Below, one piece after another: positions 1 to 17,771 of a DNA stretch of 36,110 bases. Source of the stretch: an uncultured Alphaproteobacteria bacterium (GTDB lineage: Bacteria; Pseudomonadota; Alphaproteobacteria; HIMB59; GCA-002718135); contig CACDMT010000012.1 in assembly GCA_902553945.1 (NCBI GenBank), positions 1 to 36,110 of the forward strand. The letters are read 5' to 3'. The number at the start of each line of letters is the position of its first letter. The first letter of the stretch is position 1. The notes under the pieces were generated by a model that was given only the letters and a program-made list of their open reading frames with translations, did no database searches and was not told the DNA's origin. The position numbers were made by a program, and so were the translations under genes.

Positions 1-1
1 G

Positions 2-400
2 ACCCTTTCTGTTGCAATGAATAGAATAGGTGCAAAATCTGACTCAGGTGAAGGTGGCGAAGACCCTATAAGATTTAAACCAAAGTCAAATGGAGACAAT
101 CCTTCTTCTAAAATAAAACAAATTGCAAGTGGAAGATTTGGAGTTACTGCAGAATATTTAAATAATTGTGAGGAAATTGAAATAAAAGTTGCACAAGGAG
201 CTAAACCTGGTGAAGGAGGGCAGCTACCAGGAGGGAAGGTAACAGAATTAATAGCTAAACTAAGACATTCGACAGAAGGCGTTACACTTATAAGTCCCCC
301 ACCTCATCATGATATTTATTCAATAGAGGACCTAGCTCAATTAAAACTGCAAAATACTGTACATCTAAGCATTCTGCTGATTGAACGTTTAAAGAAATAA
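2..400 (+). CDS. gltB: Glutamate synthase large subunit, internal fragment (FMN domain), inverted relative to the rest of gltB
   Basis: The reading frame enters from the left edge ([10 protein letters not shown]) and carries hallmark residues of the GltB FMN/synthase domain: [28 protein letters not shown] and [18 protein letters not shown]. These belong well downstream of the N-terminal glutaminase domain. True GltB coding ends near position 343; after that the frame reads antisense through the minus-strand gltB copy and gives an unrelated tail (about 18 residues) to a stop at 398-400. The ATG at 17 is internal, not a start. This piece and the minus-strand piece are two non-adjacent parts of one gene facing each other, with roughly 200 residues of normal GltB missing between them (judged from memory of the E. 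coli protein). Read it as a gene fragment. Family assignment is very sure; whether the arrangement is real is doubtful. Confidence 0.85.
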
Positions 401-13044: not shown

Positions 13045-13674
13045 ATGATAACTAAAATCTGTGGAATCAAAAAAAGTGAGACACTTTATTGTTGTGAAAA
13101 AAATAATGTTAATTTTTTTGGAATGATATTTTATGAAAGAAGTCCAAGAAACATATCAATCGATCAAGCAAAACATCTTCAAGAAATATCAAAAAATTTA
13201 AATATAAATGGTGTTGGCGTATTTGTAGATTACAATTTAAATGAATTGAAAAATATAGTTTTAAATTTAAATTTAAAATATGTTCAATTACACGGTGAAG
13301 AAAATAATGATTATATTAATTCACTTAAAGAAAATAATATTAAAATCATAAAAAAAATTTCAATAAATGAAGAAGAAGATTTGAATAAAATTAAAAAATT
13401 TCATTCTGCAGATATTATATTGTTTGATTATAAACCATTAAATAATGAATTACCTGGAGGAAATGCTAAAAAATTTGATTGGTCAATTGTTAAAAATTTA
13501 AAATTAAATAGACCTTGGTTTCTTTCAGGCGGTATAAATTTACATGATATATCAGTCTTAGTTAGAGAAATTAAGCCTTTTGGAATTGATTTATCATCTG
13601 GAGTTGAAAAAGAACTTGGCATTAAAGATAATGTGATGATAAATAAATTAATGGGTAATATAATTAATGCTTAA
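13045..13674 (+). CDS. trpF: Phosphoribosylanthranilate isomerase
   Basis: 209 residues, a TIM barrel that isomerises PRA to CdRP in tryptophan synthesis. The catalytic general base cysteine is C6 in TKICGIK, and the general acid aspartate is in ILFDYKP (about 128). Other family marks are [44 protein letters not shown] and GIDLSSGVE. It overlaps trpB by 8 nt, so the two are probably translationally coupled. trpF, trpB, trpA are together, while trpE/G/D/C are not in the window and must lie elsewhere if present. Confidence 0.97.
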
Positions 13675-14875
13675 AAATTCATATAAAAGTTTACCAAATG
13701 AAAAAGGATATTTTGGTCAATTCGGTGGAAGATATGTATCTGAAACTCTTATGCCTTTAATCTTGGAAGTAGAAAAAGAATATACTAAAATAAAAGATGA
13801 TAAAAATTTTATTGAAGAATTTAATTACTATTTAGAAACTTATGTTGGAAGACCAAGTCCACTATTTTATGCAAAAAGAATTTCTGATGACTTAAAGGGC
13901 CCAAGAATATATTTTAAAAGAGATGAACTAAATCATACAGGGGCACATAATATAAATAATTGTATGGGTCAGATTTTACTTGCTAAAAAAATGGGTAAAA
14001 CAAGAATTATTGCTGAAACTGGAGCTGGTCAACATGGTGTTGCAACTGCAACTGTTTGTGCTTTGTTTGGCCTACCATGTATTATCTATATGGGTGAAAA
14101 AGATATTGAAAGACAATCTCCTAATGTATTTAGAATGAAATTACTGGGTGCTGAAATAAGATCTGTTTCTACTGGATCAAAATCATTAAAAGATGCAATG
14201 AATGAAGCTCTTAGAGATTGGGTTACTAATGTAACAGACACTTTTTATATAATAGGCACTGCTGCAGGTCCGCATCCTTACCCTGCTATGGTAAGGGATT
14301 TTCAATCAGTAATTGGAAAAGAAGTAAGAGAGCAAATAAATAAATTAGAAGGTAAATCTCCAAATCTATTAATTGCTTGTATTGGAGGTGGCTCTAATGC
14401 ATTAGGTTTATTTCATGAATTTTTAGATGACCCAGATGTCAAAATGATTGCAGTAGAAGCCGCGGGTCATGGTATAAAATCTAATAAACATGCTGCAAGT
14501 CTAGCTGGAGGTAAACCAGGAGTCTTGCATGGAAATAAAACATACCTTTTACAATCTAATACAGGACAAATAGAAGAGGCGCATTCTATATCAGCAGGCT
14601 TAGATTATCCTGGTATTGGTCCAGAACATTCTTATTTGTTTGAAGAAAAAAGAGTTGATTACATGTCTGCTACAGATAAAGAAGCTTTAGATGCTTTTCA
14701 ATATTGTTGTAAATTAGAAGGTATTATTCCTGCATTAGAACCAGCTCATGCTTTAGCAGTATTAAAAAAAGTTGCCAAAGATTATAGTAAGAATGATATT
14801 ATAGTTATGAATATGTGTGGAAGAGGCGATAAAGACATATTTACTATAGCAGATGAACTAAATATTAAATTTTAA
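13667..14875 (+). CDS. trpB: Tryptophan synthase beta chain, catalytic lysine read as asparagine
   Basis: 402 residues, full length. The beta subunit condenses indole with serine using PLP. Nearly all signatures are intact: [32 protein letters not shown] (with the catalytic Glu), [24 protein letters not shown] (PLP phosphate loop), ALEPAHALA and CGRGDKDI. The exception is the PLP Schiff-base lysine. In the family motif HTGAHK the K is asparagine here (N95, codon AAT at 13949-13951). E. coli K87 is the equivalent, and without it the enzyme should not catalyse normal turnover. A one-base change from AAA explains it, so a sequencing or amplification error is likely, but a real loss cannot be excluded. 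It abuts trpA (TAATG). Confidence 0.95.
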
Positions 14876-15669
14876 TGACTAATTTAATTAGTCAAATTTT
14901 TAAAAATAAAAATAAAAAACTTGTAACTTTTGTTACAGGAGGAGATCCTGATTTTAAAACCAGTAATGAAATTTTAAAAATAATTATTGAAAATGGTGTT
15001 GATATCGTTGAAATTGGAATGCCCTTCTCAGATCCAATGGCAGATGGTCCGACAATTCAACTTTCTAGCAACAGGGCATTAGAAAATAATATTGATCTAG
15101 ATCAAATTTTTGAATTATCAAGAAACGCAAAAAAAATTAAAGAAAAATTACCTATAATTCTTATGGGCTATTACAATGTAATTTTACATTATGGCATTGA
15201 GAAATTTGTTAGTAGTTGTGTAAAAAATGGTGTTGATGGATTAATTATTGTTGATCTTCAACCTGAGGAAGATAATTTTTTAATTAATGAATTAAAAAAA
15301 AACAACCTTCATTTAATAAGATTAATAACCCCAACAACTAATAAAGATAGACTAAAATTAATACTAAAAAATTCTAGTGGATTTTTATATTATGTAAGTA
15401 TTATGGGAATTACTGGACAAAAATCTGCAGATTTAAAAGAACTAGAAAAATCAATAAATTTTATTAGAAAATTTACTAATTTGCCCATAGTTCCAGGTTT
15501 TGGAATAAAAGATGAAACTGATGTTAAAAAAATATGTAAGATTGCTGATGGCGCTGTTGTTGGATCAAGTATTGTTAAAATAATTGAAGAAAATTTATCT
15601 AAGAAAGAAATTATGTTAAAAAAAATAAATAAATTTACAAAAGATTTAAAAAAAGCAACAATATCATGA
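14875..15669 (+). CDS. trpA: Tryptophan synthase alpha chain
   Basis: 264 residues, a TIM barrel that cleaves indole-3-glycerol phosphate to indole, which is channelled to TrpB. The catalytic pair is present: E46 in VEIGMPFSDP and D57 in MADGPTIQ. The mobile loop 6 (MGITGQKSADL, with the conserved Thr) and the phosphate-binding VPGFGIK and GAVVGSSIV segments are also intact. The start overlaps the trpB stop by one base, and the 3' end overlaps accD by 4 nt (ATGA). Unlike TrpB, no key residue is changed. Confidence 0.97.
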   Translation: MTNLISQIFKNKNKKLVTFVTGGDPDFKTSNEILKIIIENGVDIVEIGMPFSDPMADGPTIQLSSNRALENNIDLDQIFELSRNAKKIKEKLPIILMGYYNVILHYGIEKFVSSCVKNGVDGLIIVDLQPEEDNFLINELKKNNLHLIRLITPTTNKDRLKLILKNSSGFLYYVSIMGITGQKSADLKELEKSINFIRKFTNLPIVPGFGIKDETDVKKICKIADGAVVGSSIVKIIEENLSKKEIMLKKINKFTKDLKKATIS

Positions 15670-16508
15670 ACTGGTTAACTAACTTTGTAAAACCAAAATT
15701 ATCTTCACTTGTAAAAAGAAGAAATGTTCCAGAAAAATTATGGAATAATTGTATATCATGTGGAAATATGATTCATCATAAAGATCTAAGTGAAAATTTA
15801 AGAGTTTGTATTAATTGTGACTATCACTTTAGAATGTCAGCTGAAGATAGAATCAATTTATTTTTTGATAAAGATCAATATTCAGAAATTGATTTAGATA
15901 AAATTACTGATGATCCTTTAAATTTTTCAGACAAAAAAAAATATAAAGATAGATTAAAAGAATATAGAAAAAAAACGAAAAGAGACGATGCTTTTATATT
16001 GATACATGGTAAAATTTTTGAGAAAGAAACAATAACTGGATTAATGAATTTTGAATTTATGGGAGGTTCAATGGGTCGTGCAGTAGGTGGCGCTATTGTT
16101 AAAGGTGCTAAATTAGCAGTTGAAAAAAACCTGCCTTATATAATTGTTACATCTTCAGGTGGTGCTAGAATGCAAGAAGGTCTTATAAGTTTAATGCAAA
16201 TGCCGAGAACAATAGCAGCTGTTGATTTACTTAACGAAAACAATATACCATATATAGTGATTTTAACTGAACCAACAACTGGAGGAGTTACTGCATCTTT
16301 TGCAATGTTGGGAGATGTAACTATTGCTGAAAAAGGAGCAACTGTTGGGTTTGCCGGTAAAAGAGTAATACAAGATACAATAAGAGAGGAATTACCTATA
16401 GATTTTCAAAAAGCAGAATATTTAAAAGAGCATGGCATGGTCGATATTGTTTCTCATAGAAAAGATCTAAAGAACACTTTGCATAAAGTATTAAGCCATA
16501 TAAGTTAA
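15666..16508 (+). CDS. accD: Acetyl-CoA carboxylase carboxyltransferase subunit beta
   Basis: 280 residues. The zinc ribbon is complete (C29, C32, C48, C51 in NCISCG and RVCINCDYHF). It is followed by the crotonase-like carboxyltransferase core with GGSMGRAVGGAIVKGA, VTSSGGARMQEGLISLMQMP, EPTTGGVTASFAMLGD and GFAGKRVI. With AccA it transfers CO2 from biotin to acetyl-CoA, making malonyl-CoA for fatty acids. trpA-accD-folC is a conserved alphaproteobacterial order. The start overlaps trpA; folC follows after 3 nt. Confidence 0.97.
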   Translation: MNWLTNFVKPKLSSLVKRRNVPEKLWNNCISCGNMIHHKDLSENLRVCINCDYHFRMSAEDRINLFFDKDQYSEIDLDKITDDPLNFSDKKKYKDRLKEYRKKTKRDDAFILIHGKIFEKETITGLMNFEFMGGSMGRAVGGAIVKGAKLAVEKNLPYIIVTSSGGARMQEGLISLMQMPRTIAAVDLLNENNIPYIVILTEPTTGGVTASFAMLGDVTIAEKGATVGFAGKRVIQDTIREELPIDFQKAEYLKEHGMVDIVSHRKDLKNTLHKVLSHIS

Positions 16509-16511
16509 TTA

Positions 16512-17771
16512 GTGAAATCTAAAACAGAAAAGCTATTGGATGAGCTAGTAGGTCTTCATCCAAAATATATTGATTTATCTTTAAATAGAGTAAACAAACT
16601 TTTAGATAAATTGGGAAATCCACATCATAATTTACCAAAAACTATTCATATAGCTGGTACAAATGGGAAAGGATCAGTCCAGAGCTTTATACGAAATATT
16701 ATAGTTGCAAATGGATATTCATGTGATGCATATATATCACCTCATTTATATAAATTTAATGAGAGAATCATAATCAACAATAAAGAAATTAGTACTAAAA
16801 AATTATACGAAACTTTAAAAATTGTAAAAAAAATTAATAATAATAATCCAATAACATTTTTTGAAATAACAACAGCTGTTGGTTTTTTACTTTTTAGTAA
16901 ATCAAAATCAGATTTTTTAATTCTTGAAACAGGTCTTGGTGGTAGATTAGATGCAACAAATATATTAAAAAATAAAATATGTAGTATTATAACACCTATA
17001 AGTTTTGATCATGAAGAATTTTTAGGTAAATCTATTGAAAAAATTACAAAAGAAAAATTAGGCATTACAAAAAAAAGCAATTATATTTTAATCTCAAAAC
17101 AGAGTAATGTAGTTAATAAAATAATAAAAAATAATATACCTAAAAATAAAAAAATTTTCTATTATGGAAAAGATTACAATATAAATAAAATATTAGATAA
17201 TAAATATGAATTTAGATTCAAAGATAAAAAATTATATATACAAAAACCTAAACTTAATGGTAATCATCAAATTGAAAATGCAAGTGTAGCATGCGCTTGT
17301 ATTTATATTTTAAAAGACCTAGGAATCAAATTTAAAACTAAATTAATTAACAATTCAATAAAAAATACCTCATGGCCAGGTAGATTAGAAAAGTTTAAAT
17401 ATAAAAATAAAACTATTATTTTTGATGGCTCTCATAATATTGACGGTGCAAAAAAATTAAATATTTTTTTAAAAGAAAGCAAAATTAAACCACTAGTTGT
17501 ATTTGGAATGTTAAATAATAAAAAATTAAATAGTTTTCTCAAAATTTTAAAAAAACAAATTAAATTTATTTTGGCTGTTGAAATTCCTAATGAAAACAAT
17601 TCATTTAAAACAAATGAAATAAAAAAGGTCTGCTTAAATCAATCTATTGAATGTAAAGAGATTAAAGATTTTAAAAAAATTTTTAACATTATTAAAAAAA
17701 CAAAAGATTCAAAAATTCTAATTACAGGTTCACTATATTTAGTAGGTAAACTCAGAAATAGATTCTTATAA
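16512..17771 (+). CDS. folC: Folylpolyglutamate synthase / dihydrofolate synthase
   Basis: 419 residues, a Mur-ligase-family enzyme that adds glutamate to dihydropteroate and folates. The P-loop is HIAGTNGKGSVQSF (about 46-59); LETGLGGRLDATNI and ITPISFDHEEFLG are FolC-specific; the C-terminal ligase domain has FDGSHNIDGA. The start is GTG at 16512, three bases after the accD stop, and the homology begins at once (TEKLLDELVGLHPKYIDLSL). It is the last gene of the plus-strand run. Its stop overlaps the trxA stop on the other strand by 6 nt, leaving no space for an intergenic terminator. Confidence 0.96.
   Translation: MKSKTEKLLDELVGLHPKYIDLSLNRVNKLLDKLGNPHHNLPKTIHIAGTNGKGSVQSFIRNIIVANGYSCDAYISPHLYKFNERIIINNKEISTKKLYETLKIVKKINNNNPITFFEITTAVGFLLFSKSKSDFLILETGLGGRLDATNILKNKICSIITPISFDHEEFLGKSIEKITKEKLGITKKSNYILISKQSNVVNKIIKNNIPKNKKIFYYGKDYNINKILDNKYEFRFKDKKLYIQKPKLNGNHQIENASVACACIYILKDLGIKFKTKLINNSIKNTSWPGRLEKFKYKNKTIIFDGSHNIDGAKKLNIFLKESKIKPLVVFGMLNNKKLNSFLKILKKQIKFILAVEIPNENNSFKTNEIKKVCLNQSIECKEIKDFKKIFNIIKKTKDSKILITGSLYLVGKLRNRFL

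Follow-up and report, generated by a model that had tools for sequence, protein, structure and literature searches.

The tryptophan synthase beta chain (TrpB) encoded in the window, which is the whole 36,110-nucleotide stretch of alphaproteobacterial DNA analyzed here, carries asparagine at the position of its PLP lysine, and this change is very probably a single-base error in an otherwise normal gene. We favor this reading because all of the compared relatives keep the lysine and because the same contig bears a scar of amplification. The wrong base would stem from whole-genome amplification of a single cell, or from the sequencing or assembly that followed, and the TrpB of the cell itself is predicted to be a normal PLP enzyme that, together with TrpA, would make tryptophan from indole and serine.

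In TrpB, PLP is held by the lysine of the HTGAHK motif. The motif in the window reads HTGAHNINN, with the codon AAT at positions 13949-13951 of the forward strand encoding asparagine at residue 95; alignment places a lysine at the equivalent position in three solved TrpBs. The gene itself (trpB, 13667..14875, forward strand) encodes a full-length protein of 402 amino acids with neither a stop nor a frameshift inside the frame, and scores 631 bits against the TrpB1 model TIGR00263 (cut-off 392.45), covering positions 1-383 of 385. Both the altered codon and the full-length frame bear out the initial annotation, which had been made from the sequence of the window. The gene is also linked to trpA (14875..15669, forward strand; open, full length, and above the TIGR00262 cut-off at 273 bits), such that the trpB stop codon ends on the first base of trpA, position 14875. 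On its other side lies trpF (13045..13674, forward strand), which is open and full length and whose best model gave 180 bits, under that model's cut-off of 216. The genes accD (15666-16508) and folC (16512-17771), both on the forward strand, follow trpA, in the same order beside trp genes as is reported for Pelagibacter ubique (PMC2395257). A trpE-type gene, trpD, and trpC are found on contig C14 of the same genome, and because these three, like trpF and trpA in the window, are open without stops, the tryptophan pathway looks kept in this organism.

We compared the residue across 102 genomes of the genus, a set that includes the source of the window (1,154,655 bases in 58 contigs, 62.8% complete, with 0.1% contamination); 67 of these yielded a TrpB1 match and 35 did not. 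Lysine occupies the site in the protein alignment of all 62 full-length TrpBs from genus relatives, as well as in all four partial or broken TrpBs that cover it—asparagine is thus shared by none of the 66 genus relatives covering the site. Among eight genomes from other genera of the family, one of which (G105) gave no TrpB1 match, lysine was present in seven of seven TrpBs. At the DNA level, the codon was AAA in 29 of 29 genus relatives checked, the remaining relatives having been checked as protein. The initial annotation had proposed that lysine in relatives, with no repeat of asparagine, would speak against a real loss, and this is the pattern we observed at both genus and family level. 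The nearest TrpB DNA is 83% identical, and the comparison genomes include no second one of the same species.

A scan of a wider contig collection (genome_contigs) for the same motif with an Asn codon, which covered that one motif and Asn codons only, matched a single stretch, a count from which no rate of recurrence is drawn, in a collection that may leave out the window's own genome. This stretch, in the betaproteobacterial MAG contig CAIXDG010000004.1 (L035, 1137-2330), has trpF and trpA next to a trpB of full length in which AAC (Asn) takes the place of the same lysine codon. The one match among viral contigs (L074) contained no TrpB among its listed open reading frames and was taken as chance. 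The literature retrieved on TrpB2 and lysine 87 and on catalytic lysines and pseudoenzymes held, among the matches listed and in the portions of those sources that they represent, no natural bacterial TrpB lacking the PLP lysine.

Judged from its sequence, trpB apart from residue 95 is not decaying. We aligned 63 TrpBs of the genus, leaving out L035 (a different branch of the phylum and too short a match) and five gapped, broken, or split genes (L069-L073) that were inspected separately, of which L073 does not cover the site. Of 402 columns, 254 were invariant and 31 had a single dissenter, and K95N was the only departure of the window protein at columns otherwise invariant across the genus, which argues against decay; the comparable numbers of dissents for the window's other proteins were five for MetK (30 rows), three for TrpA (33 rows), and three for TrpF (28 rows), using only loci that covered those genes. 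That the other 284 conserved columns are all unchanged implies that neutral divergence since any loss was below about 0.005 per site, a rough bound based on an estimated 653 non-synonymous sites. It follows that any loss of the lysine was very recent, unless the remaining protein has been kept for another function. Over the first 400 codons, comparison of trpB with that of L006 (NG86) gave a dN of 0.062 and a dS of 1.14, with 140 codons differing synonymously and 37 otherwise. When sequences were ranked by the non-synonymous share of codons differing from the nearest relative, the window stood at 59 of 63 for TrpB, 29 of 30 for MetK, 28 of 28 for TrpF, and 24 of 33 for TrpA. Relaxed selection on trpB was considered as an explanation and rejected, given that MetK and TrpF are also high; we read these shares as an effect of branch length, because the species is divergent and its synonymous sites are near saturation. 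The ranks give no argument for the error reading.

The left end of the contig bears a different kind of lesion. Within positions 1..345 (forward strand, Pfam Glu_synthase), with a junction near 339-346, gltB residues ~897-1010 on the forward strand (numbered by the frame in L127) abut gltB residues 1-689 on the reverse strand, and about 207 residues that should separate the joined parts are absent; a single open frame contains both parts in two relatives, G077 and G044. This inverted join is probably an amplification chimera, and the left contig end is therefore unlikely to represent true genome order. In a study of 475 chimeras produced by multiple displacement amplification (MDA) from one E. 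coli cell, inversions accompanied by a deletion between the joined parts predominated (PMC1855051). From the MDA-type join, the incompleteness of the genome, and its low contamination, we infer that the source was a single amplified genome. The chimera shows amplification, not the base error at residue 95 itself. These observations lend support to the suspicion, raised first in the initial annotation, that sequencing or amplification had altered the codon.

To place such an error in context, we considered one single-cell workflow that, on benchmark cultures, produced 1.5 misassemblies, 3.0 indels, and 5.0 mismatches per 100 kbp (PMC6122165, PMC9007364). If this workflow's mismatch rate is assumed for the assembly, ~58 wrong bases are expected in the whole and about 2 in the window. 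Assuming 300-500 enzymes with 2-4 key residues each, the same rate gives roughly 0.07-0.23 hits on key residues per genome, and such cases will consequently turn up when broken active sites are sought across many genomes. The argument for error rests on this multitude of sites at which an error would be noticed, not on the chance of a change from lysine to asparagine at this single codon, which is about 3e-5 per genome.

Lesions inside trpB were also found in two other genomes, G072 and G043, among the 67 with a TrpB1 match. In the former (L071, 3293-4613, on G072:C2), trpB2 residues 1-122 run into trpB1, which is entered at residue 82 and in a different frame; this chimeric join of two loci is flanked by eamA and, at its other end, by trpA-accD. 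In the latter (L070, 3648-4851, on G043:C4), a frameshift divides trpB between two frames, which local alignment assigns to residues 1-83 and 63-401. The gene is additionally gapped by a run of Ns in G058 and split over two contigs in G047. As a control, internal stops in metK were found in 0 of 72 genomes with a match, two of which were partial (G066 and G020). Two lesions in 67 genomes do not differ significantly from none in 72 (Fisher p 0.23, or 0.11 when the window is counted), and the control neither proves nor excludes an artefact origin of the trpB lesions.

The suggestion in the initial annotation that a trpB2 gene might exist elsewhere in the genome proved correct. Contig C8 encodes a TrpB2 (G000:C8 29570-30607; L002 1267-2631) that scores 604 bits against TIGR01415 (cut-off 518.85) and 697 against PRK12391 (cut-off 366), with its lysine present in the motif TGSHKPN. 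Its position agrees with a published description of species in which trpB1 sits in an operon and trpB2 lies outside operons (PMC1854888). TrpB2 matches were found in 79 of the 102 genus genomes, this one included, and the lysine was kept in all nine TrpB2 loci checked (seven from the genus and two from other genera). TrpB2 reportedly uses O-phosphoserine, going by the title of a study by Busch et al. in 2014. Given its frequency across the genus, TrpB2 is not a response to loss of the TrpB lysine; it is a genus trait that could soften a loss of TrpB, with no sign of compensation for K95N. Next to the C8 gene lie genes encoding an EamA transporter and a DUF1015 protein. Its product is 97-98% identical to those of five genus members (L083, L084, L086-L088), 96.5% to that of L082, and 88% to that of L085; full-length matches across the genus are 85-91% identical for TrpB1 and 87-94% for MetK, and TrpB2 seems to be unusually slow-evolving in part of the genus.

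These data also bear on three readings that take the asparagine to be real. A loss of function that arose recently in this cell or its nearest kin, and that uptake of tryptophan or indole or the activity of TrpB2 makes tolerable, would draw on the lysine-bearing TrpB2 of contig C8, and the lack of a second lesion in trpB fits a very young loss; such a loss must nevertheless be extremely recent and have been caught by chance, and it would sit in a pathway that looks kept, with the trpE-type gene, trpD, trpC, trpF, and trpA all open. We consider this explanation unlikely. Less probable still is that the enzyme stays active because another amine or a relocated lysine restores catalysis. Although a published list of enzymes that small-molecule supplements can rescue includes lysine mutants of tryptophan synthase (PMC12018205), the known rescue depends on added amines, and the conserved columns of the window TrpB show nothing unusual apart from residue 95; we would assign this possibility next to no weight.

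Alternatively, TrpB might have been repurposed as a non-catalytic protein that docks on TrpA and activates the release of indole, which TrpB2 would then join to serine or phosphoserine. The strong constraint on the rest of the protein and the presence of TrpB2 in the genome are consistent with this scenario, and eudicots offer a precedent in TSB-like, a non-catalytic TrpB paralogue able to activate the alpha subunit (PMC12727527). In eudicots, however, TSB-like is an additional copy, whereas the window gene is the sole TrpB1 found in a genome that is 62.8% complete; the two residues altered in TSB-like, a glutamate and an aspartate, are unchanged here (E117 and D313); and asparagine recurs in none of the genus relatives. 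The possibility of a repurposed TrpB, which the initial annotation had raised, gained no positive support and appears very improbable. A wrong base thus continues to be the best account of the AAT codon: where a lone change that would kill an enzyme, with no other decay, lies on a contig that bears the mark of amplification, error is likelier than biology in a single-cell or environmental assembly. If reads supported the asparagine, the gene would represent a bacterial TrpB pseudoenzyme in a TrpB2-carrying lineage, and would be of use in testing the function of TrpB2.

Among known systems, laboratory TrpB lysine mutants resemble the window protein in the replacement of the PLP lysine and differ in having been made in the laboratory. 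One of them, a Lys87 mutant of Salmonella TrpB, is said to have been described by Lu et al. in 1993; in an ancestral TrpB K90A (PDB 9vgk), the residue replaced is presumed to be the PLP lysine. With canonical TrpB1, the window protein shares its family score, length, gene order (PMC2395257), and all genus-invariant columns but one, differing by asparagine at residue 95 in place of the PLP lysine. Its likeness to eudicot TSB-like, conditional on the asparagine being real, is that of a TrpB expected not to make tryptophan, whereas TSB-like is an added paralogue in which other key residues have changed (PMC12727527). Numbered as in A. squarrosa, those changes are loss of the indole-activating glutamate at position 190 and replacement of Asp by Glu at position 386; the TSB-like section of that paper names these two residues, neither of which is the PLP lysine (PMC12727527). 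Mapped by a constant offset of 73, these positions correspond to E117 and D313 of the window protein, both kept, and we found one TIGR00263 hit over the cut-off, with no second TrpB1 beside a working one, an absence that is not firm at the completeness of this genome. There is only a slim chance that this free-living bacterium has turned the TrpB of its trp operon into a non-catalytic activator of TrpA that releases indole, with a separate, highly conserved TrpB2 making tryptophan; if it has, the protein would be a bacterial counterpart of eudicot TSB-like, reached by losing the PLP lysine itself.
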